A stretch of 64,000 nt of DNA. It comes from Isosphaeraceae bacterium (GTDB taxonomy: Bacteria; Planctomycetota; Planctomycetia; Isosphaerales; Isosphaeraceae). Positions 3,736 through 17,964 of the stretch are shown here, in pieces. Positions within the stretch are counted from its first letter, which is position 1. Each line of letters begins with the position of its first letter. The notes below the pieces were generated by a model, which saw only the letters and a program-made list of their open reading frames with translations, searched no databases and was not told the origin of the DNA. Both the position numbers and the translations under genes were made by a program. The DNA is taken from the NCBI GenBank assembly GCA_025356475.1, contig JANXSX010000122.1, forward strand, positions 1 through 64,000. Direction: 5' to 3'.

Positions 3736-4334
3736 GAAAATGCCTCCCGCAGCGGACTTCCTGATTCTCTATCGACGCTCTGGATATAGGTAAACGGCCA
3801 TTGTCGGCGAATCAAGAGCCGACCTTTCGATCTCGACGAAAGTCACGGGAAGATCGCTCCACGAACGCGGGGATAACTTGTCCTGGGGGACAACTTGCTC
3901 TGTCTTTTGGGAGTCGGCTCGTGATTCTGGAGGGGAAAAGAGAACAAATAAAGAGGACGGACTGAATAACCAGGCTTAATATAGCCTATTTATTCCATCA
4001 CCTTTTATCGCTCTGATCCGAAGCGGCTCCGCGTGTCGTTCGGATCGGAAGGGTGGACCCGCTGCACGGCCCAAACCCTGAGCCTAGAGTCAACACTCCG
4101 GGGACGCGGCAGACCCAAGCAGACGCTATAATTCCCTTCGTCCTCTTTCTTCGCTTTCGTTTCGGGCGAAATGTGACGGCCTTCTTCTTGTCACCTGCCC
4201 CTTTTTGTAATTATGATCCGGTATTATCTTTGCCATGCATACGACGCGACAAGGGTACTGCCGGGGGTGAGCCGTTACTTCCTGGCAGTCTCGGTGACGG
4301 TACTGGCGAAGTCGCCGCCGATGGAGAACTCCCC
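3736..4334. other. Intergenic region before the phytochrome operon
   Basis: About 600 bases with no convincing gene. An open frame from a GTG at 4053 runs into the small ORF at 4335 but has no protein-like character upstream of it. The base composition is mixed, AT-rich at 3940-4010 and 4180-4240, and the latter stretch contains a candidate promoter. Confidence 0.6.
4188..4216 (+). promoter_or_regulatory. Candidate promoter of the bphO-bphP operon
   Basis: TTGTCA at 4188-4193, a 17-bp spacer and TTATGA at 4211-4216 form a weak sigma70-like promoter about 120 bases before the first small ORF of the operon. A second AT-rich hexamer, TATTAT, begins near 4222. Confidence 0.3.
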
Positions 4335-4433
4335 ATGAATAGCAACCCTACCGACCAATCCCTTGAAGCGCCGCTACCGGCCGAAGAGAGCGATTTCGAC
4401 GAGCGGGGCGACGGCGACTGGGGAACTGCGTGA
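4335..4433 (+). CDS. Small acidic ORF (32 aa) coupled to heme oxygenase
   Basis: ATG 4335 is preceded by GGAG nine to twelve bases upstream and opens a 32-residue, strongly acidic frame ending in G-D-G-D-W-G-T-A. Its TGA overlaps the heme oxygenase ATG in the form TGATG, the classic arrangement for translational coupling. I do not recognise the peptide. It could be a leader peptide, the remnant of a longer gene, or noise; the evidence is the ribosome-binding site and the exact stop-start overlap. High G+C third positions begin here, as in the rest of the operon. Confidence 0.35.
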   Translation: MNSNPTDQSLEAPLPAEESDFDERGDGDWGTA

Positions 4434-5035
4434 TGACGACATCCGCCGCCGTACCACTGATTTTATCCCGACTCCGGGCCGAAACGCGGGCCGAACACGA
4501 GGCCATCGAAGCCGACCTCGACCTGACGGGCGGTGGACTGACCCGCGACCGCTACCGCCGTATCTTGGAACGCTTCTACGGCTTCTATGCCCCGCTCGAA
4601 CATGCTATCCGGGCCGTCGGCGGGTGGGCCGACCGCGACCTCGAACTGGACGCGCGGCGAAAGGGTCCACTGCTCGAAGCCGACTTGCGAACGCTCGGGG
4701 TCGATGCGCCGACAGCACTTCCGCTGTGCGACGACCTGCCGCCTCACGTCACGCCGGCCGACTGTTTCGGCTGCCTGTATGTGCTGGAAGGATCGACGCT
4801 CGGCGGGCAATTCATCAGCCGACACGTACAACACGCCCTCGGGGTGACGCCCGCAACCGGCGGTCGGTTCTTCCACGGGTACGGGGACAAAACGGGCGAG
4901 ATGTGGCAGAGCTTCCGGGCGTCCGTGACGGGCTTCGTCGTGTCCCCGGCCGATCAAGACGCGGCGGTGGCCGCCGCGAAAGACACATTCCAGAAACTAC
5001 ACCGCTGGACTGCAACGCGAGACGATTCACCATGA
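4433..5035 (+). CDS. bphO: Biliverdin-producing heme oxygenase
   Basis: A 200-residue all-helical heme oxygenase of the BphO type. The N-terminal L-R-A-E-T-R-A-E-H-E-A-I segment carries the proximal haem-ligand histidine (E-H at about residue 22), and the distal helix reads L-Y-V-L-E-G-S-T-L-G-G-Q-F-I with the glycine-rich kink typical of the family. It opens haem to biliverdin IX-alpha, the chromophore of the phytochrome encoded next. The ATG at 4433 overlaps the preceding TGA; a GTG at 4430 in the same frame is an alternative. Its own TGA overlaps the bphP ATG (ATGA at 5032-5035), so chromophore enzyme and photoreceptor are made together. Confidence 0.88.
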   Translation: MTTSAAVPLILSRLRAETRAEHEAIEADLDLTGGGLTRDRYRRILERFYGFYAPLEHAIRAVGGWADRDLELDARRKGPLLEADLRTLGVDAPTALPLCDDLPPHVTPADCFGCLYVLEGSTLGGQFISRHVQHALGVTPATGGRFFHGYGDKTGEMWQSFRASVTGFVVSPADQDAAVAAAKDTFQKLHRWTATRDDSP

Positions 5036-7383
5036 CCAATTCCGCTCTTCAAACTGACACCCCGCCGCCCTGGGACGGCCAGCCGTACAGCATCAAGCGG
5101 CACGGCCTCACCCTCACCAACTGCGACTCAGAACCCGTGCAGACGCCCGGGTGCGTCCAGGCCCATGGGGCGCTCCTGGTGTTGCGGTCGACCGACTTGA
5201 CCGTCCTCCAGGCGAGCGAGAACATCGAGAGCCTGCTCGGGCACGGGCCGGACCAACTGCTCGGCCAGTCAGTCGCCGCCGCCGTTGGCCCGAACGGCGA
5301 AGCCCTACTCCGCGAGTTCCTGGCGAGCGAGCCGACTGACCGCAACCCTCTGTACGTGTATACCCTACCAGACCGCGGCGATTTGCCCCCGCTCGACGTG
5401 ACCGTCCACACCATCGACGGCGTGGCGGTGGTCGAGTTCGAGGCTACCGGGCGGACGGACTCCAGCGAGCCGGACTACTACGCACTCGTCAAGAAGACCG
5501 TGACCCGGCTCCAGACAGCCGACACCCTGCGACAATTCTGCGACATCGCCGCCGAAGAGTTCCGCACCCTGACCGGCCTCGACCGGGTGATGGTCTACAA
5601 GTTCCACGCCGACGGGCACGGCGAGGTGTTCGCCGAGAGCAAGCGGGCCGACCTCGCCCCGTGGCTCGGTCTGCACTACCCGGCCGAGGACATCCCCAAA
5701 CCTGCGCGGGACATCTTTCAGCACATCTGGATCCGACCGCTCGCGGACGTTCACGGCGGCCTGGCCGAGTTGGTCCCGCTCACCAACCCGGACACCGGCC
5801 GGGCACTCACGATGACGTACTGTGCCCTGCGCGGGGCGTCGCTCATGTACACCGAATATCTGGCCAACATGGGGGTACGGGCAGCCCTCGTCATGCCCAT
5901 CCGCGGAATGGCCGGGCTGTGGGGCCTGGTCTCCTGCCACCACTACGCCGGGCCGAAGTTCATTCCTTACCAGGTGCGGGCGGCGTGCGAGTTCCTGGCC
6001 CAAGTGGTCTCGCTCCAGTACAAGGCGGCCGAGGATCGAGAACACTTCGTCTACCGGCTCAAGCTCGACGGCGTTCACCAGCAACTCGTCGCCCGGGCGG
6101 CGCAAGAGGGCGACCTGTCGGCCATGACCGACGGCAAGCCGGCCCTGCTCGACGGCCTCGCTGCGGGCGGGGCGGCCCTGTTCCACCGCGACCGCTGGTG
6201 GCGGGTCGGCACGACCCCGACCGAGTCGGAACTGGAAGCCCTCGGCGAGTGGCTGGTCGCGCGCCCGGAATTCGCCTCCGCCACCCGCCCGCTGTACGTC
6301 ACCGACTCGCTCGACCGCGACTACCCGCCGGGCGCGGCGTTCGCCGACGTGGCCAGCGGCGTCCTCGCGTTCCCGCTCTCGCGGGCCGGGAGGAACGTGA
6401 TGCTCTGGTTCCGCCCGGAGACGATTCAAACGGTAAACTGGGGCGGCAACCCGCACGAGAAGCCGACCGTGACGGGGCTGCACGGCCTGCGGCTCACCCC
6501 GCGGCGGAGCTTCGAGCTGTTCGCCGAGTCGGTTCGCGGGCGGTCCCTGCCGTGGACCCCGGTCGAAGTGGACGCGGTCGCCCGCCTGCGGATGTTGGTG
6601 ATGGAACTGGTTGTCAGCCGGGCCGAGCGGCTGGCCGACCTGAACGCCGACCTGTCCCGGTCGAACGAGGAACTCGACGCCTTCGCCTACGTCGCCAGCC
6701 ACGACCTCAAGGAGCCGCTGCGCGGCATCCACAAGTACGCCCACCAGTTACTCGAAGAAGCGGCCGTGACGGACGAGGAGCACCGCAAGAAGCTCGAAAG
6801 GCTGATGCGGCTGACGGTGCGGATGGACGGCCTGCTCGACTCGCTGCTGCACTTCTCCCGGGTCGGTCGGGCGGCCCTCCGGTTCGAGGAGACGGACCTG
6901 AACGAGGTGCTGGCCGAGGCCGTCGAGATGGTCGGCTCGCGGACCGCCGACGGGCGGTCGGAGGTGGTCGCCCCCCGGCCCCTACCACACGTGCGGTGCG
7001 ACCGGGTGCGGTGCCGGGAAATCCTGGTCAACCTCCTGTCGAACGCCCTCAAGTACACTGGCGAGGGGGAGAAGCGGATCGAGGTCGGGTACATCAACCC
7101 GGGCGAAGACCACCCCCGGCCCGCGTGCCCGGACGGGGCCGCAGGTCACTCGATCTTCTACGTCAAGGACAACGGCATCGGCATCAGCCCGAAGCACTTC
7201 GGGCAGGTGTTCAAAATGTTCAAGCGGCTGCACGGGCAGGACGATTACGGGGGTGGGACCGGTGCCGGGCTGACCATCGTGAAGCGGCTGGTCGAGCGGC
7301 ACCGCGGGCAGGTCTGGCTCGACTCGGCACCGGGAACCGGCACCACCTTCTATTTCACCCTGCCGTGCCAGGAAGGAGCCTAG
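5032..7383 (+). CDS. bphP: Bacteriophytochrome histidine kinase
   Basis: A 783-residue bacteriophytochrome with the full PAS-GAF-PHY-HisKA-HATPase order. Cys31 in T-N-C-D-S-E-P lies where bacteriophytochromes bind biliverdin covalently. The GAF domain has H-Y-P-A-E-D-I-P near residue 220, and the PHY domain has W-F-R-P-E-T-I-Q-T-V-N-W-G-G-N-P. The HisKA helix carries the phosphoacceptor His557 in A-S-H-D-L-K-E-P-L-R, followed by an N-box (N-L-L-S-N-A-L-K-Y), D-N-G-I-G-I and a glycine-rich G2 box. It should be a cytoplasmic red/far-red sensor. The open frame extends upstream to 4363, but that part merely shadows bphO; ATG 5032 overlaps the bphO stop. Nearly every third codon position is G or C. 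Confidence 0.92.
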   Translation: MTNSALQTDTPPPWDGQPYSIKRHGLTLTNCDSEPVQTPGCVQAHGALLVLRSTDLTVLQASENIESLLGHGPDQLLGQSVAAAVGPNGEALLREFLASEPTDRNPLYVYTLPDRGDLPPLDVTVHTIDGVAVVEFEATGRTDSSEPDYYALVKKTVTRLQTADTLRQFCDIAAEEFRTLTGLDRVMVYKFHADGHGEVFAESKRADLAPWLGLHYPAEDIPKPARDIFQHIWIRPLADVHGGLAELVPLTNPDTGRALTMTYCALRGASLMYTEYLANMGVRAALVMPIRGMAGLWGLVSCHHYAGPKFIPYQVRAACEFLAQVVSLQYKAAEDREHFVYRLKLDGVHQQLVARAAQEGDLSAMTDGKPALLDGLAAGGAALFHRDRWWRVGTTPTESELEALGEWLVARPEFASATRPLYVTDSLDRDYPPGAAFADVASGVLAFPLSRAGRNVMLWFRPETIQTVNWGGNPHEKPTVTGLHGLRLTPRRSFELFAESVRGRSLPWTPVEVDAVARLRMLVMELVVSRAERLADLNADLSRSNEELDAFAYVASHDLKEPLRGIHKYAHQLLEEAAVTDEEHRKKLERLMRLTVRMDGLLDSLLHFSRVGRAALRFEETDLNEVLAEAVEMVGSRTADGRSEVVAPRPLPHVRCDRVRCREILVNLLSNALKYTGEGEKRIEVGYINPGEDHPRPACPDGAAGHSIFYVKDNGIGISPKHFGQVFKMFKRLHGQDDYGGGTGAGLTIVKRLVERHRGQVWLDSAPGTGTTFYFTLPCQEGA

Positions 7384-7384
7384 C

Positions 7385-7828
7385 ATGACCGCCGTACCGA
7401 AACTGCCACCCATCATCATCGTCGAGGACTCGGACGAGGACTTCGACACCGTCCAGCAAGCCGTGCGGAAGGCCGGCGTCGTGGCGGAGGTCCGGCGGGC
7501 CACGACCGGGGGCGGGTGCCTGGACCTCCTCCACGGCGTCGCCGCGATCCGCCCGGCGATGGTGCTGATGGACCTGAACACGCCGGGCACCGACGGCCGG
7601 GAGGCGCTCGCGGCCATCAAGGGGGACGACGCGCTCAGGGCGTTTCCGGTGGTGGTGTTCAGCACGTCGGCCGACCCCCGCGACCTGCTGTACTGTTACA
7701 CCACCGGGGCGAACGCCTACCACGTCAAGCCCATCCGCTACCCCGACCACCTCCAGCTCGTCATCGACATTCTCACCTACTGGCTCGGAAGGGTCGCCCT
7801 GCCGGACCCCGGAGAGACAAGCCCATGA
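7385..7828 (+). CDS. Single-domain response regulator (Rcp1 type)
   Basis: A 147-residue receiver domain with the acidic pair E-D near residue 14, phosphoacceptor Asp63 in L-M-D-L-N-T-P-G, the conserved serine/threonine in V-V-F-S-T-S-A and the lysine in Y-H-V-K-P. The L-N-T-P-G and H-V-K-P-I-R-Y signatures match the small response regulators that accompany bacterial and cyanobacterial phytochromes. The ATG lies one base after the bphP stop, and the TGA overlaps the next ATG. It has no output domain, so it probably relays phosphate from BphP to another protein, possibly to or from the hybrid kinase that follows. Confidence 0.88.
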   Translation: MTAVPKLPPIIIVEDSDEDFDTVQQAVRKAGVVAEVRRATTGGGCLDLLHGVAAIRPAMVLMDLNTPGTDGREALAAIKGDDALRAFPVVVFSTSADPRDLLYCYTTGANAYHVKPIRYPDHLQLVIDILTYWLGRVALPDPGETSP

Positions 7829-10800
7829 CGACCGTTTCGGCTCAAATAGAGGCCCAGGTGTGGCGGGTCGTCGTCATCGACGACAGCCCGGACGACCGGG
7901 CCGAGGTCCGCCGGCTCCTCCTGAAGGGGTCCGAGCGGCGGTACCAGTTCGTCGAGGCCGAGACCGGGGCGGCCGGGGTGCGGGCCGCCCTCGACCCAGT
8001 CGCCGGGCCGCCGGGGTGCGTCGTCCTCGACTACAACCTGCCGGACCTGGACGCGGTGGAGGTGCTGGCGGCCCTGGCCGGCCCTGACGGCCTGACGGCC
8101 TGCCCGGTGGTGGTGCTGACCGGCACCGTCGGCCACGAGCACACCCGGGCGGTCCTCCGGGCCGGGGCGCAGGACTACCTCGGCAAGGGGTGGATGACCC
8201 CCGAGAGCCTGACCCGCGCGGTCGAGAACGCGACCGAGCGGTGGGTCATGGCCCGCGAACTGCGCAAGCAGAAGGCGGCTCTAAAGACGAGCGACGACCG
8301 CTTCCGGCTCGCCGCCGACGCCGTGAACGGCATCATCTACGAGTGGGACATCCTGACCGGTCACGTCGAGCGGCAACGTGGGCTGTACGAAGTCCTCGGC
8401 TACCACGCCGTCGAGGTTCCGCTGACCGCCGCATGGTGGCGGGAGCAAATCCACCCCGACGACCTGGAGGTAGTCGAGCAGCAGTTCACGGAGTTAGCGG
8501 GCAACTCCGTCGTGAGCGAGTACCGGGTGCGGCACAGGGACGGGCGTTGGCTGCACCTTGAGGACCGGGCCGTGTTGCTGCGGGGCGACGACGACCGCCC
8601 GGTGAAGATGGTCGGCTGCGCGGTGGACATCACCGACCGCAAGCGGGCCGAAGAGCGGCTGCGGTACAGCGAGCAGTTGCACCGCGTTGCGTTCGACCAA
8701 TCCCCGACCGGAATGGTTTACGTCGGGGCGGACGGGCGGCTCATCAAGGTGAACCCTGCGATGTGCGTGATCACCGGCTACCCCGCCGAGGAGTTGGTAG
8801 GGATGAAGGTGTCCGACCTCACGCACCCGGATGACCTGGCCGCCGACGCCGAACTCGTCACCCCCTTCCTGCGCGGCGACACGCTGACCTACGAGAACGA
8901 CAAGCGATATGTGCGGAAGGACGGCGGCGTCCGCTGGGTGTCCATCACCGAACGTATGGTGACGGACGCTGAGGGCCAACCGCTCCATAGTGTGGGCGTC
9001 GTCCGGGACATCACCGAGCGCAAGCGGGTCGAGGGGGAGCGGCAGCTTCTCGCCTCGATTGTGGAGAACTCGTCCGACTTCATCGGCATCTCGGACACGC
9101 AAGGCAACCCGGTGTACGGCAACCGGGCGGCGATGGAACTCGTCGGCGTCCAAGACCTCGAGCAGGTCTGGCGTACTAAGATTGTCGAATACTTCGTCCC
9201 GGAGCAGCGACCATTCGTCGCAGAAGTTATCCTGCCCGCCGTCGTTAAGGACGGGCGCTGGTGTGGCGAACTGACGATGCAACATTTCGTCACGGGGGCG
9301 ACGATCCCCGTCTGGTACGACCTGTTCCGGGTAGACGACCCGGTGACGGGCCGGCCGATCAACTTCGCCACCATAACCCGCGACCTCACCGAGTCGAAGC
9401 GGGCCGTGGAGACGCTCCGGGCGAGCGAGGCGTTCAACCGCAGCCTGATGGAAGGGAGTGCCGATTGCGTTAAGGTGCTGGACTTGGACGGGCGACTGCT
9501 GCACATGAACTCCCCCGGCCTGTGCCTGATGGAGATTGACGACATCGGGCCGCTGTGCGGGCAGGAGTGGCCGGCCCTGTGGCCGGCCGAGGCCGAAGTC
9601 GGCATCCGCCGGGCCGTCGCCGCAGCCAGCGGCGGCGACAGCTACTCGTTCCGGGCGTTCTGCCCGACGGCGAAAGGGACGCCCAAGTGGTGGGATGTGG
9701 TCGTTAGTCCCGTTTGCAACGCCGCCGGGCGGGCCGTGCATCTGTTGGCGGTCTCCCGCGACATCACCGCCTACAAGGAGGCCGAGGACGCGCTAAGCGC
9801 GAACGAGGAGCGACTGCGGATGGCCCTGGCCGCCGCCCAGGCCGGGGCGTGGGCGTGGGAGGTATCGACCGAGGTCATCACCTGGTCGCCAGAAAACTAC
9901 GAACTCTACGGGTACGACCCCCAGGCCGGCGGTCCGCCGGCCTACGCCGACTGGAAGGAACGGGTCCACCCGGACGACCGCACGCAGGCGTACGCCGCCG
10001 TCGACGACGCCCTAGCCGGCCGCACCCCCGAGTTCCGGTCCGAGTTCCGCGTCACCCACCCGACCCGCGGCGACCGCTGGCTGCTCGGCCTCGGGCGGGT
10101 CGAGTTCGCCCCTAACGGGGAGCCGCTTCGCGTGGTCGGCATCAACCTGGACATCACCGACCGCAAGCGGACCGAGCAGTTAATGGCCGAGCAGGACGTG
10201 CGGAAGGACGAGTTCCTGGCCACCCTGGCCCACGAACTCCGTAACCCGCTCGCCCCGATCCGCAGCGGGGTGGCCGTCCTCCGCATGACTCACGCGCCCG
10301 AGCTAACCGAGAAGACGCTCGGGATAATCGACCGGCAGCTCGGGCACCTGGTCAACCTGGTGGACGACCTGCTCGACGTGTCCCGGGTGCGGGCCGGGAA
10401 GATCACTTTGCGGACCGAGCAGGTGACGGTCCGCGACGCGGTGGACGCAGCCGTCGAGGCGTGCCGGCCCGCCATCGACGAGAAGTCCCACACGCTCGAC
10501 GTGGACCTCCCAGCCGAGTCGCTGGCCGTGACCGGGGACAAGACCCGGTTGGTGCAGGTGGTCGCCAACCTGCTCACCAACGCGGCCAAGTATAGCGAGC
10601 CGGGCGGCCACATCCGGATCACTGTCAAGCGTGACGGCAAGAAGGCTCTCGTGAGTGTCTCGGACACCGGCATGGGCATCGCGCGGGAAACCCTGCCAAC
10701 CCTGTGGGACATGTTCACCCAGGTGCGGGACACGCTGGACAAGGCCCAGGGCGGCCTCGGAATCGGGCTGTCCCTGGTCAAGAAACTGGTCGAGATGCAC

Positions 10801-11331
10801 GGCGGGTCGGTCGCGGCCGAGAGTGCCGGGGTCGGCCGCGGCAGTACCTTCACCGTCCTCCTGCCGCTCGCCTCAGCGAGCATGGCCGCCGCACCGTCCG
10901 TGCCGTTACCGGAGAGCAACGGGTCAGCCCGCCCGGCGGCCCGGCGGGTGCTCGTGGTGGACGACAACGTGGACGGGGCCGAGATCCTGGCCCGGCTGCT
11001 CACGTTCTCAGGCCACCGGGTTGAGGCCGTCCACAGCGGACCAGCCGCATTGGAAGCCGCCCAAATGTTCTTGCCCGACGTGGTACTCCTCGACATCGGC
11101 CTGCCCGGGATGGACGGCTACGAGGTCGCCAAGCGGCTTCGCGCCGACCCGACCACGGCCGCCGCCGTCCTCGTGGCGCTGACGGGTTGGGGGAACGAGG
11201 ACGACAAGCGGAAGTGCCGGGAGGCCGGGTTCGACGTTCACCTGACCAAGCCCGTCGAATTCGCGGCCTTGACAGACGCGCTCTCCCGCTCTTCCTCCCT
11301 CAACCGGCGAGACGGCAGTTGGCACTGGTGA
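7825..11331 (+). CDS. Hybrid histidine kinase, REC-PAS(x5)-HisKA-HATPase-REC
   Basis: A 1168-residue cytoplasmic kinase without membrane segments. Order of domains: receiver (Asp69, about 10-130), five PAS/PAC modules (about 150 to 790, each closed by an R-D-I-T or D-I-T-D-R-K type PAC end), HisKA with His803 in A-H-E-L-R-N-P-L-A-P, HATPase_c (N-L-L-T-N-A-A-K-Y; D-T-G-M-G-I), and a C-terminal receiver (Asp1090 in L-L-D-I-G-L-P-G-M-D-G). ATG 7825 overlaps the previous stop. Receivers at both ends fit a phosphorelay in which the N-terminal one takes input from the phytochrome branch. The last three codons and the stop lie inside the left terminal repeat of the mobile element that follows, so the original C-terminus was probably slightly different; both receivers look intact. 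Confidence 0.9.
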   Translation: MTTVSAQIEAQVWRVVVIDDSPDDRAEVRRLLLKGSERRYQFVEAETGAAGVRAALDPVAGPPGCVVLDYNLPDLDAVEVLAALAGPDGLTACPVVVLTGTVGHEHTRAVLRAGAQDYLGKGWMTPESLTRAVENATERWVMARELRKQKAALKTSDDRFRLAADAVNGIIYEWDILTGHVERQRGLYEVLGYHAVEVPLTAAWWREQIHPDDLEVVEQQFTELAGNSVVSEYRVRHRDGRWLHLEDRAVLLRGDDDRPVKMVGCAVDITDRKRAEERLRYSEQLHRVAFDQSPTGMVYVGADGRLIKVNPAMCVITGYPAEELVGMKVSDLTHPDDLAADAELVTPFLRGDTLTYENDKRYVRKDGGVRWVSITERMVTDAEGQPLHSVGVVRDITERKRVEGERQLLASIVENSSDFIGISDTQGNPVYGNRAAMELVGVQDLEQVWRTKIVEYFVPEQRPFVAEVILPAVVKDGRWCGELTMQHFVTGATIPVWYDLFRVDDPVTGRPINFATITRDLTESKRAVETLRASEAFNRSLMEGSADCVKVLDLDGRLLHMNSPGLCLMEIDDIGPLCGQEWPALWPAEAEVGIRRAVAAASGGDSYSFRAFCPTAKGTPKWWDVVVSPVCNAAGRAVHLLAVSRDITAYKEAEDALSANEERLRMALAAAQAGAWAWEVSTEVITWSPENYELYGYDPQAGGPPAYADWKERVHPDDRTQAYAAVDDALAGRTPEFRSEFRVTHPTRGDRWLLGLGRVEFAPNGEPLRVVGINLDITDRKRTEQLMAEQDVRKDEFLATLAHELRNPLAPIRSGVAVLRMTHAPELTEKTLGIIDRQLGHLVNLVDDLLDVSRVRAGKITLRTEQVTVRDAVDAAVEACRPAIDEKSHTLDVDLPAESLAVTGDKTRLVQVVANLLTNAAKYSEPGGHIRITVKRDGKKALVSVSDTGMGIARETLPTLWDMFTQVRDTLDKAQGGLGIGLSLVKKLVEMHGGSVAAESAGVGRGSTFTVLLPLASASMAAAPSVPLPESNGSARPAARRVLVVDDNVDGAEILARLLTFSGHRVEAVHSGPAALEAAQMFLPDVVLLDIGLPGMDGYEVAKRLRADPTTAAAVLVALTGWGNEDDKRKCREAGFDVHLTKPVEFAALTDALSRSSSLNRRDGSWHW

Positions 11332-11831
11332 ACATTTCTGGGTGCCACTAGTCGTACCTGACTAGTGCCTTCATGGGGCCATCGGCGGTCCTTGCTCAGA
11401 GGAGATTTTCAGGTGAATTTCGTCGACTCTGAACGCACGTTAAGAGATTTCACGCGCCCGGTAATTGCCACGAGTTGACTTCTCGTACCATCCTCGGATG
11501 CCGCTCTTGACCAACACTACGAGCGGCCCGGATTTCATCGTCTTCGATCCTTGCAGGAAAGGCAAGTTCTGATCGGAACCGCCGGTCCGCCAAGTCCGAG
11601 GAAGCCACGATCGCCTCTATGATACGAGAACCCGGTTCGTCGACAACTCTGCAAGAAGATGGCTGATTGGCGATGGTCGAGTGCTCGTCACGACTAGGTG
11701 CACGGAAAATCCATTGCCAATCCAGGAATTGACCTGAGAATTCTCTGCTGAATTCTCACTTGGCCGCCGAATAGATCAAGACACTTGCCGAGTACGACCC
11801 AGTGGATCCCCAGACATGCTCACCAGTGCCA
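11320..11831. mobile_element. MITE-like element, copy A (512 bp)
   Basis: Ends are perfect 11-bp inverted repeats, TGGCACTGGTG at 11320-11330 and CACCAGTGCCA at 11821-11831; allowing mismatches and small gaps the inverted repeat extends for about 50 bp. No open frame codes for a recognisable transposase. The right-hand two thirds match copy B at 12595-12933, while 11367-11557 is absent from copy B and matches a separate repeat at 17770-17964. I saw no clear target-site duplication. The family is not one I can name. Confidence 0.7.
11367..11557. repeat. 190-bp dispersed repeat, copy inside element A
   Basis: This stretch aligns with 17770-17964 along most of its length, sharing blocks such as GGTCCTTGCTCA, GATTTCACG and TTGACCAACA-like segments in the same order. 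It is missing from the related element B, so it looks like a nested insertion. A small hairpin, ACGAG and CTCGT around a 7-base loop, is conserved in form between the copies. Confidence 0.6.
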
Positions 11832-11936
11832 TCCGCCGGGCTGGCCGATCAAAAATCGATCAAAGCGTGCTTGCGCAAGCTGCTTGAGCCAAAAAACGCC
11901 TCAGGCGTACGCCGGTTGCTGTCGGGGACGTGAATA

Positions 11937-12263
11937 CTAACCTTCATTCTCTTTCGGATTTACCGGCTTTTCGCCCGGTGCTCCGATGGCGAGAATGACC
12001 ACCTCGTCGCCTCGGACGACGAAGAGTGCTCGATATTTCCGGCCCTTCGGGAGCCCAAAGAGCAGATGACGAACCTCTTCGTCAAAGCCCGGGTTCTCGT
12101 AGGCGAGGCCGCAGGAGAGGGGAAATTACGCAAGGCGGGAGAGACATTCTTCGAAGCGTGCTTCGAGACGGTCGGCCGCCTGGGGAAACCGTTCGGCAAG
12201 CGATTCGAGGAGACGATTCATGTCCTTGCGGGCTCGCTCCGAAAACTCAATTCGGTAATTCAT
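11937..12263 (-). pseudogene. RelE/ParE-family toxin, inactivated by a stop codon
   Basis: The frame starts at ATG 12263, overlapping the antitoxin stop as ATGA, and reads as a ParE-type toxin: M-N-Y-R-I-E-F-S-E-R-A-R-K-D near the start, then after about 45 codons an in-frame TAA (12128-12126), and beyond it F-P-L-S-C-G-L-A-Y-E-N and K-G-R-K-Y-R-A-L-F-V-V with R-G-D-E-V-V-I-L-A-I-G, ending at TAG 11939-11937. Apart from the TAA the frame is continuous for 108 codons, the normal size of the family, so a single base change separates it from an intact mRNA interferase or gyrase poison. The antitoxin upstream is intact. Confidence 0.85.
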
Positions 12264-12514
12264 CGATTACCAAGGCGAAATTTTTTGCGGAGATCGGCGA
12301 GGACTTCGTTGGCGGGACGAGTTCTCCCGGCATACATATCGTCCAAGCCTTCACGGATAGCCACGGCGGTCTCCTCTCGCTCCTCATCGGTCTGATTCTC
12401 GTATTCCCAGAGGTCGAGAGCCTCTTCGAGCGTGATGTTTGCCCCACCGTTTGAGAGCTTGGCGTCGGCGAAATCGCGGAAAGCTTTCAGGTCATTCGCT
12501 CGTACTGTTTCCAT
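12260..12514 (-). CDS. Type II antitoxin, partner of the broken ParE toxin
   Basis: An 84-residue acidic protein starting M-E-T-V-R-A-N-D-L-K and containing E-A-L-D-L-W-E-Y-E-N-Q-T-D-E-E-R-E-E-T and a C-terminal I-R-E-G-L-D-D-M-Y-A-G-R-T-R-P-A-type segment that is common in planctomycete toxin-antitoxin antitoxins. ATG 12514 has GGGAGGG ten bases upstream; a TTG at 12523 in the same frame is too close to that site. The TGA overlaps the toxin ATG by four bases (ATGA). With the toxin dead, this is an orphan antitoxin, perhaps kept for regulation or for neutralising a related toxin elsewhere. Confidence 0.75.
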   Translation of the reverse strand: METVRANDLKAFRDFADAKLSNGGANITLEEALDLWEYENQTDEEREETAVAIREGLDDMYAGRTRPANEVLADLRKKFRLGNR

Positions 12515-12594
12515 AGTGTTCAAACCCTCCCAGGCTTCACTTCTAGAATAACACTAAGGGCGAATTTTGGGTGCGATTGATGAAGCACTGGCAT

Positions 12595-12933
12595 GTGGCA
12601 CTAGTGAACAATTCTGGGTTTCACTGATCGTACTCGACTAAGGAGATCAGAGCGGACGCAAAAACGCGAGAAGAACTCCCCTTCCTTGCTACAGACACCT
12701 CTTAATACGAGAACCCGGTTCGTCGACAACTCTGCAAGAAGTTGGTTGATTGGCGATGGTCGAGAGATCGTCGCAACCAAGTGGACGGGAAAGGCACCCC
12801 CCAACTCGAAAATCCACCGCCGATTGAGGGCTTGCCTTAGAATTCTCTGCTCAGCCCTTGCTTGGCCACCGAACAGATCATGACTGTGGTCGAGTACGAC
12901 CAAGTGGCACACAGACATGCTTAGAAGTGCCAC
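12595..12933. mobile_element. MITE-like element, copy B (339 bp)
   Basis: GTGGCACT at 12595-12602 is repeated inverted as AGTGCCAC at 12926-12933, and the imperfect inverted repeat runs on for about 50 bp including GTCGTACTCGAC-like sequence. The interior shares a long block with copy A, beginning ACGAGAACCCGGTTCGTCGA and including AACTCTGCAAGAAG and TTGATTGGCGATGGTCGA. A 110-residue open frame on the minus strand has no recognisable domain and is probably incidental. Confidence 0.68.
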
Positions 12934-12946
12934 CCGCCGGAGATCT

Positions 12947-13238: not shown

Positions 13239-13385
13239 TGTCGCTCGAACTGCCTCGACTGGACGAAGGTCAACCCCGACATTTTCGGCTCCATGATCCA
13301 GGCGGTGGCCGATGACGAGGAACGCGGGGCGCTACTCCCGCAACTGCTGAGCCGCAGCCTGCAAATCAATTATCAAACCGAATAA
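13239..13385 (+). pseudogene. Relic of an MmeI-like DNA methyltransferase
   Basis: A stop-bounded frame of about 48 codons contains L-D-W-T-K-V-N-P-D-I-F-G-S-M-I-Q-A-V, which matches the conserved pre-motif of MmeI-type adenine methyltransferases (W-x-x-V-N-P-x-I-F-G-x-M-x-Q), then E-E-R-G-A-L, where the family continues with G-x-H-Y-T. Here the similarity stops and TAA follows at 13383-13385. The parental enzyme is over 800 residues, so this is a short internal remnant directly before the helicase gene, evidence that a restriction or defence locus once stood here. Confidence 0.6.
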
Positions 13386-13389
13386 TACC

Positions 13390-15537
13390 ATGATTAACAC
13401 AGTATGGGGCAGCACAGATAAGCCCGTTGCGAGCTGGCGGCTGGCGCAAATTCTCAACGCGGAAGCGGACCTCGAAGGCACTCTCTACATTGGGTATCCA
13501 ATAATCGGCACGCCTGAGGGTTCCTTTCCGATAGATGCGTTACTCGTGTCGCCGACCAAAGGCCTCGTTTTGTTTAGCGTGGTTGAAGGCAGGGTTCTCC
13601 CGGACTTCGTCGAGGCACAAGACGAGGGCTTTAATAAGATGCAGGCAAAGCTGCTTCAGCATCAGACCCTGATCCGCAAGCGGCAGCTGATTGTTCGTAT
13701 TCACACAGTCACTTTTGCGCCTGCCATCCTGCAACTTGAACCTTCCGACGATTACCACCTTCTCTGCAATGCAGACACCTTGGTTTCGACTATCAAAGCA
13801 CTCGATTGTTTCGACTCGGAGGTTTTCCCGTCACTGGTTTCGGTCATTCAAGCAATATCCACACTACGAAGGGGCAGGAAAAAGCGCGCACTGCACAGCC
13901 AAACTTCGCGAGGCACTAAGATTAAGGCATTGGAAGATTCGATCGCGAATCTCGACAGCCAGCAAAGCGCAGCAGTGGTTGAAACGTATGAAGGTGTTCA
14001 GCGGATTCGTGGGCTCGCAGGATGTGGCAAGACCATCGTTCTGGCTTTGAAGGTAGCCTACTTGCACGCCCGCCATCGGGACTGGTTGATCGCTGTAACA
14101 TTCAGCACACGGTCACTTAAAAAGCAGTTCGAGAACCTCATCACGACATTCGTGCTAGAGCAGGCAAACGAAGAGCCGGATTGGGACAAAATCCGCATCT
14201 TGAATGCGTGGGGCGCACCGGGCGGATCCGACCGCACTGGCATCTACTACGAGTTCTGCTGTGACCATGGCGTCGAGTATCTTGATTTTGGAACCGCAAA
14301 GAATCGCTTCGGGTCCGACAAAGCGTTTGAAGCGTCGTGTGAAACCGCCCTTCAAAGTGTCAAACAATTCGTCCCAAAATACGATGCGATCCTCGTCGAT
14401 GAGGCTCAGGATTTTGCGCCCAACTTCTTGTTGCTCTGTTACGAATATCTCAAGGAGCCGAAGCGCCTAGTCTACGCATACGACGAGTTGCAGAACCTCG
14501 GGAATAGGTCACTTCCGCCTGTCGAAGAAATCTTCGGAAAAAACACAGATGGAACTGCCCGCGTCGTCATCCACCCGCCCGAGACAGGCAAGCCAAAGCA
14601 GGATATCATCCTCGACACCTGCTACCGCAACTCGCGCCCTGTCTTGTCCACGGCTCACGCACTTGGGTTTGGGGTTTACCGCGCCAAGGGCCTAGCTCAA
14701 ATCTTTGAAAACAAGAACCTCTGGTTCGACATCGGCTACCAAGAGACCGATGGGGAAATCAAAGACGGCAAACTCGTGACTATCAGCCGCACGCCAAAAT
14801 CCAGTCCTGAGTTTTTGGAAACCCATTCTCCCGTGGATGACTTGATTCAGTTTGAAGTCTTCAAAACCGCCGAAGCACAGACTGCCTGGCTCGTTGCGGA
14901 AATTGAGGGGAACCTGACTAAGGACGAACTGATACCTGACGATATTGTCGTCATCAATCCTGACCCGTTAACAACGAAGGAGGCAGTCGGAGAGGCGCGA
15001 CGGATGCTGTTGCAGATGGGAATCAATTCGAACCTCGCTGGAGTGACGACGATTGCCGATGTTTTCACCGAGCCAGGGACTGTGACGTTTACTGGCATCT
15101 TCCGCGCAAAGGGGAATGAGGCTGCGATGGTTTATGTGATCAACGCACAGGATTGTTTTGGAGCAAACCTGCCAAGGGATGTCGCACGCGTCCGAAACCG
15201 CCTTTTTACGGCAATCACACGCTCGAAAGCTTGGGTGCGAGTTCTCGGTGTTGGGGAGGCGATGTCGGCTCTGAAGGAGGAGTTCGAAAAGGCGAAGAAG
15301 CAGAACTTTGCGCTGCACTTTGTCTACCCAACCGAAGACGAGCGGATGACGATGATGACTGTAAATCGTGACATGTCGAAAGCAGAGCAGGACCGAAGCA
15401 ATAAACGTACAAACGATTTTGCTGACATTATCGAGTCCTTGGATTCAGGAGAGAGCGTCATCGAAGATTATCCCGATGACCTGGTGAAGAAGTTTCAAAC
15501 CTTTGTGGCCAACAAAGCCAAACGCCGCCGAAAATGA
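13390..15537 (+). CDS. Superfamily I helicase with N-terminal NERD-like nuclease region
   Basis: 715 residues. The N-terminal part (about 20-110) contains P-I-D-A-L-L-V-S-P-T-K-G-L-V-L-F and resembles a NERD/PD-(D/E)XK nuclease, although the usual E-x-K is not intact (V-V-E-G-R). A UvrD/Rep-type motor follows: Walker A G-L-A-G-C-G-K-T near residue 208, Walker B L-V-D-E-A-Q-D-F near 335, a C-Y-R-N-S motif, and a C-terminal T-A-I-T-R-S-K motif VI near 608, ending in a lysine/arginine tail. It probably unwinds or senses DNA ends in the cytoplasm. The start has a weak ribosome-binding site. Its stop overlaps the DUF2290 gene by four bases. G+C is lower and codon use different from the operons on either side, consistent with transfer. 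Confidence 0.82.
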   Translation: MINTVWGSTDKPVASWRLAQILNAEADLEGTLYIGYPIIGTPEGSFPIDALLVSPTKGLVLFSVVEGRVLPDFVEAQDEGFNKMQAKLLQHQTLIRKRQLIVRIHTVTFAPAILQLEPSDDYHLLCNADTLVSTIKALDCFDSEVFPSLVSVIQAISTLRRGRKKRALHSQTSRGTKIKALEDSIANLDSQQSAAVVETYEGVQRIRGLAGCGKTIVLALKVAYLHARHRDWLIAVTFSTRSLKKQFENLITTFVLEQANEEPDWDKIRILNAWGAPGGSDRTGIYYEFCCDHGVEYLDFGTAKNRFGSDKAFEASCETALQSVKQFVPKYDAILVDEAQDFAPNFLLLCYEYLKEPKRLVYAYDELQNLGNRSLPPVEEIFGKNTDGTARVVIHPPETGKPKQDIILDTCYRNSRPVLSTAHALGFGVYRAKGLAQIFENKNLWFDIGYQETDGEIKDGKLVTISRTPKSSPEFLETHSPVDDLIQFEVFKTAEAQTAWLVAEIEGNLTKDELIPDDIVVINPDPLTTKEAVGEARRMLLQMGINSNLAGVTTIADVFTEPGTVTFTGIFRAKGNEAAMVYVINAQDCFGANLPRDVARVRNRLFTAITRSKAWVRVLGVGEAMSALKEEFEKAKKQNFALHFVYPTEDERMTMMTVNRDMSKAEQDRSNKRTNDFADIIESLDSGESVIEDYPDDLVKKFQTFVANKAKRRRK

Positions 15538-16199
15538 CACCCAAGCAAACGCTCAAACAGATCAATGAACTCACCCAGGCTCTGGTGGGACTGAGCCTTT
15601 CGAATGAGCAGAATTTTCCAACTACGCAGGGGAAACCCAAGGCGGCGTTCGAGATTTCAGTGAGCACCGCCGCAGGAATGAGCGTCGCACTTAAAAATTT
15701 AGCTTACCGTGACATCTACGGGGAGCTGGAGAAAGCGCGGTGCTTCAACATCAAGATGCTGGATGGCGCATTGGTTTCACTTCGCTACCGCTTTCTGGCC
15801 GGAGTCATCCGCGAACATTCGCTCGCATACTTCCCGTCTCCGGACCTCGAACATTTTCAGAACGAGCCCGAAATTTATCTGGAGGACGAGATCTATGCGG
15901 ATGTCGTTGCGAAAAATATCGTGCCGTTCCCTATTCGTTTCGACTTTAGTGACGACAAAGAGAAGTTTGTGGACGTTGACCACCCGTATTCCCACTTAAC
16001 GCTCGGCCAATACAAGAATTGCCGAATACCAGTCTGCTCCCCACTTGGACCGCTTGCTTTCGGCGGCTTCATTTTGAGGAACTTCTACAACACGGCCTTC
16101 CGCAAATTCTCAGACAGATTTCCAACCAGCAAATTGGGATTCGCCAACACAATCACCGCGAAGGAAAGAAAGATCCAGCATGTCGTCTTAGGCGTGTAG
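15534..16199 (+). CDS. DUF2290 family protein, partner of the helicase
   Basis: 221 residues, no signal or membrane segment. The Y-R-D-I-Y-x-E-L-E-K-A-R, K-M-L-D-G-A-L-V-S-L-R-Y, F-P-S-P-D-L-E-x-F-Q-N-x-P-E-I-Y-L-E-D-E-I-Y-A-D and H-P-x-S-H-L-T-L-G-Q-Y-K-N-C-R-I-P segments, plus the C-terminal F-I-L-R-N-F-Y-N-T-A-F, are the full-length signature of DUF2290 as I know it. The family has no assigned activity. The ATG overlaps the helicase stop (ATGA at 15534-15537), so the two proteins are made in fixed ratio and probably act together. The invariant histidines, aspartates and glutamates leave room for a metal-dependent activity, but that is a guess. Confidence 0.75.
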   Translation: MTPKQTLKQINELTQALVGLSLSNEQNFPTTQGKPKAAFEISVSTAAGMSVALKNLAYRDIYGELEKARCFNIKMLDGALVSLRYRFLAGVIREHSLAYFPSPDLEHFQNEPEIYLEDEIYADVVAKNIVPFPIRFDFSDDKEKFVDVDHPYSHLTLGQYKNCRIPVCSPLGPLAFGGFILRNFYNTAFRKFSDRFPTSKLGFANTITAKERKIQHVVLGV

Positions 16200-16658: not shown

Positions 16659-17678
16659 TTGGTCATGTTTACGTATAATCAACAAAAACGGTTTTTTAAT
16701 TTTCTAAATGGCGAAGAGTTCACTTTCCCTAATCGCGCATTGCTTGACATGCACTTGGGTCCCCCGCAGGCATTTGGCGCAGCGGCTGGCCCGGTAAGTC
16801 TAATGTGCATCCCGGATTATTTAGTAGGAACCCTCATTAACGGCAACTCTGGACTTTATCAGTACATTCATAATTCCAAGCTCCAACCTCTTGAAATGAG
16901 AATAGAATCTGAATCACCCCCTCGGATAGAATTTGGAATTGCAGGGGACAGACTGCATTGCGAATTCGAGTGCAATAGTCTTGACGATCTCGAGAGCATG
17001 ATATTCTCGATCGTGTTTTTTTATGTACCACTCCTGAACCTTGAGTCGCTTGACCCTCCTGTCGTGATTTGTGTCTCGGGGAGTGCAGGAAGGACAGAAT
17101 TCCGATGGGAGCATTTGCGCCATATGCTACCCATGAATACAACGACGGAAGAGTCCCTGATAAATCACATGTCCAACTCTTACAAAAATTTAGATCTTGT
17201 TGGAAGGGAGTGCAACCGGCGTCTAGCGGTTGCACTCTCGTATTTTTACGTTGCCGCGCGACTTCTAGTCGTCGGACAATCGAGGTGGGAATTCATGGCC
17301 GAGTGTGTGCTCAATCTTTCGAAGACGTTGGAGATCCTTTTCGGCGGGACTAGAGACAAGACCCGCACTCACCTAGCAGCGCTTGAGTAGAACAGCCAGG
17401 AGATAGAAGGGGACTTCATTCCCCTTATGCTGCTAAGGGACGAATTAAACGTTGCCCACGTAAGACTGTGTTTAGTGAAGAGTGAAGAGCTCGACGTGAT
17501 TTATAGGTATCTCACTCACGGCGAACTGCGCATACGAGAACTCCTCAAGAAAATCATTGCGAAAACCACTGACGGCACTTATGCGTTAGAACCGGGGGGG
17601 AGCTTGACCCCCGATTCCCAACGACAAGCAAAACTCAGTAAGCTGATCGAGAGTATGGCAAAACGGATTCCGGAGTGA
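16659..17678 (+). pseudogene. Unknown, possibly HEPN-like protein interrupted by an amber codon
   Basis: TTG 16659 (AGGAG six bases upstream) or ATG 16665 opens a frame of 243 codons that ends at TAG 17388-17390. The same frame continues without shift for another 96 codons to TGA 17678, and the text across the TAG is smooth, so one gene of about 340 codons has acquired a stop. The C-terminal half contains S-K-T-L-E-I-L-F-G-G, R-D-K-T-R and L-R-D-E-L-N-V-A-H-V-R (an R-x6-H pattern), reminiscent of HEPN-type domains in abortive-infection proteins. I do not recognise the N-terminal 200 residues. It lies in the low-G+C accessory block after the helicase-DUF2290 pair. Pseudogene, sequencing error or readthrough are all possible. 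Confidence 0.6.
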
Positions 17679-17769: not shown

Positions 17770-17964
17770 GCCTTTGTAGGGCCTTCAAAGGTCCTTGCTC
17801 ACAGGCGATCTTCACATTACTGACTCGACTATGTGCGGTGGTCGAAGGAGCGTCAACAGATTTCACGAGCCCGGTGATTGCCGCGAGTTGAACTTCTCGT
17901 GCTACTGTCAGGTGTCGCGCCTGACCAACATTTCGAGGGGTCGGGACTTCATCCAACGTGCAGG
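17770..17964. repeat. 190-bp dispersed repeat, second copy
   Basis: Aligns with 11367-11557 over its length in the same orientation, with shared GGTCCTTGCTCA, GATTTCACG(A/C)GCCCGGT and GACCAACA blocks. No terminal inverted repeats are visible around this copy. It marks the right edge of the scarred accessory block, just before the catalase gene. Confidence 0.6.

Follow-up and report, generated by a model that had tools for sequence, protein, structure and literature searches.

The analysed window is a 64,000-nucleotide stretch of a contig from a planctomycete (Isosphaeraceae bacterium), and it carries a pair of complete open reading frames on the forward strand, the first encoding a superfamily 1 (SF1) helicase and the second a DUF2290 protein. 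The four-base overlap of the two frames, which had been noticed in the original prediction, is also the most frequent helicase/DUF2290 junction among the relatives (22/80). The features of the locus were assigned as follows.

13252–13333, + strand: relic of an MmeI-type (type IIG) methyltransferase gene, joined to the hsdS tail (85% DNA identity to locus L075)
13330–13390, + strand: remnant of a type I specificity gene (hsdS), corresponding to its C-terminal end (DNA similarity, amino acid match)
13390–15537, + strand: UvrD-family SF1 helicase belonging to Helicase+DUF2290, 715 amino acid residues (PADLOC PDLC03002, Pfam)
13390–13884, + strand: helicase N-terminal domain, residues 1–165, of no known family (alignment, model)
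14011–14034, + strand: Walker A motif GLAGCGKT, residues 208–215 (73 homologues)
14398–14409, + strand: Walker B motif DEAQ, residues 337–340 (73 homologues)
15534–15537, + strand: ATGA, the four bases common to both genes (ORF coordinates)
15534–16199, + strand: DUF2290 protein, 221 amino acid residues (PF10053, PADLOC PDLC02999)
15936–16025, + strand: conserved core of DUF2290, R135, D137, H150, H154, T156, C163 and R164 (invariant in 73 sequences)

As predicted, the composition of the pair is unlike that of its flanks, with a G+C content of 52.0% against 58.2 ± 1.5% for 2.8-kb stretches of the window between 18 and 64 kb. Every SF1 motif residue that was checked is intact, and the dN/dS values of the pair against its kin (∼0.05–0.13 where computable) indicate strong purifying selection.

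Surroundings and origin of the gene pair

DNA similarity to the loci L008, L010, L014 and L016 begins at positions 13330–13335, about 60 bases 5′ of the helicase gene. In these four loci, the corresponding bases are the end of hsdS, which adjoins the helicase gene, and hsdR or fragments of it lie downstream; the relic in the window matches the final 24 amino acid residues of the L010 HsdS at 62.5%. Because the hsdS end in the kin coincides with the start of similarity in the window, the sequence comparison indicates that the window pair most likely arrived from a type I restriction–modification (R-M) operon, the other genes of which have since gone. Only the hsdS relic is retained in the window, whereas 12 of the 86 relatives are nested in hsd operons. 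The methyltransferase relic had been recognized in the original prediction, and the related gene of L075 matches MmeI_Mtase, MmeI_N and MmeI_hel.

Toxin–antitoxin and mobile-element debris, likewise foreseen, was located upstream. A ParE-type toxin gene (11937–12263, reverse strand; ParE_toxin, 3.9e-10) is interrupted by an internal stop at residue 46, and an adjacent ORF of 87 amino acid residues (region 11937–12523, reverse strand), which matched no family, may encode the ParE antitoxin. A MITE-like element of about 527 bp (11313–11839) has 30-nt inverted ends that are 87% complementary, and gave 44 matches in the genome, nearly all of them partial; partial copies flank the defence pair on both sides (12698–12940 and 17770–17953). 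Downstream of the pair, an orphan gene (16659–17678, forward strand) is split by an in-frame TAG at 17388–17390, and a HEPN-like motif, RDELNVAH, was seen by eye in its second part. The earlier description of this neighbour as HEPN-like found no Pfam support, as 16659–17390 matched no Pfam family even when read through the in-frame TAG, and the gene was rejected as a system component because no homologue was found in the 86 loci, on plasmids or in 58 relatives. Elsewhere in the window, genes for sensor kinases and response regulators are clustered at 4000–11000, where the G+C content is 0.63–0.71 (mean 0.68) against 0.58 for 18–64 kb; this block seems to have been acquired separately, from a donor rich in G+C.

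Protein families and relation to known systems

The helicase matched the PADLOC model PDLC03002 (“Helicase”) with 1042.9 bits over residues 1–707, and UvrD-helicase and UvrD_C_2 scored above the Pfam cut-offs. Within the Walker A motif, G208, L209, A210, G211, G213, K214 and T215 are invariant among the 73 homologues, while position 212 is S in 63, C (as in the window) in 9 and T in 1; within the Walker B motif, D337, E338 and Q340 are invariant. The AlphaFold model (pLDDT 84.7) gave Foldseek matches to SLFN11, Dna2, UvrD1, PcrA and Upf1, and the predicted fold is near the UvrD, Dna2, Upf1 and Schlafen helicase cores. A Schlafen label was rejected, given that the best Foldseek match, human SLFN11 (6e-16), reflects the common SF1 core with TM-scores of 0.3–0.4.

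The original prediction had called the protein a “NERD-like/superfamily I helicase” and the module a nuclease–helicase; the SF1 part stands, whereas the nuclease part found no support. None of 54 N-terminal domains (the window protein and 53 homologues) matched NERD (PF08378), and the PADLOC NERD+UvrD model aligned to the helicase core only. The domain has no ExK motif: all 73 sequences carry F or I at position 62, and L, I or V at position 64. Both NERD and PD-(D/E)XK nuclease were thus rejected as the family of the N-terminal domain, and an active nuclease there appears unlikely because the domain is not NERD by sequence and the ExK motif is missing. Three acidic residues of the domain, D49, E66 and D78, are invariant.

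The DUF2290 protein matched PF10053 (E = 7.2e-51, 172.9 bits, cut-off 25) and PADLOC PDLC02999 (325 bits, residues 1–218). Besides the core residues, Y58, D77, Y85 and E211 are invariant in the 73 proteins. The AlphaFold model (pLDDT 84.8) had no Foldseek match in the PDB at E ≤ 0.001 (best E 0.21). Among viral models the nearest was Gp492 of Bacillus phage G, which at E = 0.058 was not significant, and no DUF2290 relatives were found in phage records. Judging by the alignment, the invariant residues appear to outnumber those expected of a scaffold, and the R/D/H/H/C/R core resembles a site for catalysis or ligand binding.

Since both proteins match PADLOC models end to end, we are nearly certain that the window pair is an intact, horizontally acquired copy of the already described Helicase+DUF2290 system (PDLC03002, PDLC02999), with the same two families, the same order and full-length model matches. 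The module is therefore not the undescribed candidate that had been proposed: it is present in PADLOC and was reported in 2022 by Rousset et al. from enterobacterial P4-like satellites, where it protects specifically against T7, as well as from Vibrionaceae and Bacillus prophage hotspots (PMC9122126). In contrast to those copies, the window copy resides in a planctomycete, and the hsdS tail, a trace of a former type I R-M context, takes the place of the satellite or prophage hotspot. The low-G+C, horizontally acquired pair PA1372/PA1371 of P. aeruginosa PAO1 is likened to the window pair through its assignment to Helicase+DUF2290 by others in 2024 (PMC11637435); it is known from plasmid cost rather than from phage tests.

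Two other helicase systems were compared. Hachiman (HamA + HamB) likewise consists of two genes, a helicase and a small partner of formerly unknown function, but HamB is a different helicase from that of the window, Foldseek returned no solved structure significantly similar to the DUF2290 model, and membership was rejected because the window partner matches PF10053 and not HamA PF08878. A HamA gene was observed on a short contig of the same genome (G000:C47:3601-4287, L098). Gabija (GajA + GajB) likewise has a UvrD-like helicase, and GajB models matched the window helicase core weakly; membership was rejected because the partner is DUF2290, which was unrelated in every test run, and the OLD/TOPRIM nuclease GajA is missing.

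Linkage, distribution and nesting among relatives

Genome contigs were scanned with an alignment of seven sequences, which yielded 80 loci; a further 6 were read from among 11 plasmid records, giving 86 loci in all. As a single motif seeded the scan, it may overlook distant DUF2290 proteins that have a different partner. The neighbourhood statistics called for in the original prediction showed a helicase homologue directly upstream of DUF2290 in 82 of the 84 loci with upstream room, a few of the homologues being frameshifted or cut. The distance matrices of the two proteins are correlated (Mantel r 0.904, with 0 of 999 permutations as high), and the helicase and DUF2290 are strictly linked and co-inherited.

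The closest proteins (70–90% identity) come from Verrucomicrobiota, Planctomycetota, Pseudomonadota and Thermodesulfobacteriota, mostly from metagenome bins. Apart from the window's own genome, DUF2290 occurred in none of 148 close relatives and, phylum-wide, in 5 of 391 genomes, and the distribution of the pair is thus sporadic and cross-phylum. Several copies are located on plasmids, and the L003 copy was not detected in E. coli genomes at megablast level. Given the cross-phylum nearest kin, the rarity in the own phylum and the low dN/dS, the window pair is recently moved and functionally constrained.

In 12 of the 86 loci (L008, L010, L014, L016, L018, L020, L021, L039, L040, L047, L051 and L054), the pair is nested in type I R-M hsd genes or abuts them, on the same strand. 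Two further pairs (L006 and L071) are within BREX or at its edge, and one (L072) is within DISARM. HamA, considered as a control for the frequency of nesting, gave only 13 loci with short flanks, too few for a useful comparison. Nested pairs often overlap or abut the genes of the operon: in L072, the helicase shares 16 bases with DrmMI, and DUF2290 shares 4 with DrmA. In the Thioflavicoccus BREX cluster (L006, 3829–10732), the pair separates two parts of a PglX-like gene, a methyltransferase ORF upstream and, on the other side, an ORF matching the PglX C-terminal half, as though pglX had received the insertion. Of 78 immediate upstream ORFs, 9 matched type I specificity models; of 67 immediate downstream ORFs, 5 matched type I restriction enzymes. 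At least 10 changes of state are needed to account for the 11 nested rows on the helicase tree; therefore, nesting arose many times.

Helicase+DUF2290 is a further example of defence units nested in hsd operons. TgvAB, a nested unit in an hsd operon (PMC11411939), and PrrC, linked to a type I enzyme (PMC2610378), are likewise one- or two-gene defence units in or linked to such operons, with proteins unrelated to those of the window. Additional genes were observed downstream of DUF2290 in some of the nested loci. In L008 (4564–5858) and L010 (10667–12340), the 5′ end of hsdR occurs twice around extra cargo (a DUF3800 protein in L010), as if the cargo had been inserted with duplication of the hsdR start. 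In L020 (10688–12301), an AlbA_2/Schlafen-type protein with a RecG-C-terminal-like domain is encoded directly downstream of DUF2290, within the type I R-M operon.

Proposed function and alternative explanations

By analogy with the tested relative, the window copy probably functions in defence, and the prediction that the coupled genes are a laterally moved anti-phage module fits both published work and the neighbourhood statistics, with the helicase next to DUF2290 in 82 of 84 relatives and a share of them in or beside R-M, BREX and DISARM genes. We consider it reasonably likely that the pair, as a copy of the known system, encodes two proteins working as one complex, in which the helicase acts on phage or plasmid DNA structures and DUF2290 does the blocking. 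The SF1 helicase would move on DNA using ATP and would recognize replication or recombination structures of the incoming phage or plasmid, and the DUF2290 partner would convert this recognition into a block. The plasmid effects of PA1372 inactivation, described below, also count in favour of this reading, although PA1372 belongs to a different host and its study used a plasmid. The division into a helicase sensor and a DUF2290 effector is put forward more tentatively, at somewhat less than even confidence, and is favoured because the invariant residues of DUF2290 seem more numerous than a scaffold should require. The evidence that points to a putative enzymatic role of DUF2290 is its conservation, and the N-terminal domain of the helicase, keeping D49/E66/D78, could hold the effector activity instead. 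No paper giving the mechanism was found in a search that was thin on subscription journals and bioRxiv-only preprints.

It is unlikely that plasmids or other replicons, rather than phages, are the main target, with the helicase interfering with replication initiated by a foreign Rep. This explanation draws on a 2015 study in which loss of PA1372 function removed the cost of pNUK73 in PAO1, restoring fitness, and abolished SOS induction (PMC4410645). The same loss lowered rep expression 11-fold; the copy number of pNUK73 was not significantly changed (PMC4410645), which speaks against this explanation, as does the protection against T7 by a relative (PMC9122126). Moreover, several copies are themselves plasmid-borne.

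Ocr of T7 inhibits R-M and BREX, and PrrC is set off by Stp. A second-line guard, triggered either by a phage anti-restriction protein (T7 Ocr, for example) or when the surrounding R-M, BREX or DISARM operon is inhibited, is suggested by the protection of the tested system against T7 only, a phage that carries Ocr, together with the triggering by Ocr of PARIS, from the same study (PMC9122126), and the nesting in type I R-M and BREX. The same-strand, often overlapping or abutting arrangement, the repeated label changes on the helicase tree and the HsdS tail of the window are consistent with such a guard. However, no nesting was seen in 71 of the 86 loci, some of them on short contigs, and the copies on plasmids and satellites are free-standing; we regard this explanation as rather unlikely. 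No escape mutants or Ocr tests for Helicase+DUF2290 were found in the literature.

That the pair is a decaying remnant, non-functional in the window genome, might be read from the debris around it (the hsdS tail, the MmeI fragment, the broken ParE gene and the repeat elements), but this is improbable in view of the complete ORFs, the motif residues present and the low dN/dS. A housekeeping role in DNA repair, with DUF2290 as accessory protein to the helicase, is suggested by the UvrD/Dna2-like core. This reading is very improbable and already largely refuted by the sporadic distribution, the cross-phylum kinship and the finding that, in the absence of the plasmid, the PA1372 mutant showed neither a transcriptional nor a growth phenotype (PMC4410645).

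As a member of the known Helicase+DUF2290 system, the window pair is ordinary. What is new is the hsdS tail fragment that still stands in front of this copy, together with the recurrent occurrence of relatives within R-M operons; the invariant DUF2290 residues provide a list for a first mutagenesis. The nesting, the T7-only protection and the partner of unmatched fold raise the question of whether the system backs up restriction by sensing anti-restriction proteins. We give a low probability to the fullest form of this idea, in which a portable second-line unit would repeatedly settle in type I R-M, BREX and DISARM operons and fire upon inhibition by DNA mimics such as Ocr, with DUF2290 as an effector of a fold unseen in solved structures; if true, it would explain the T7-specific protection.
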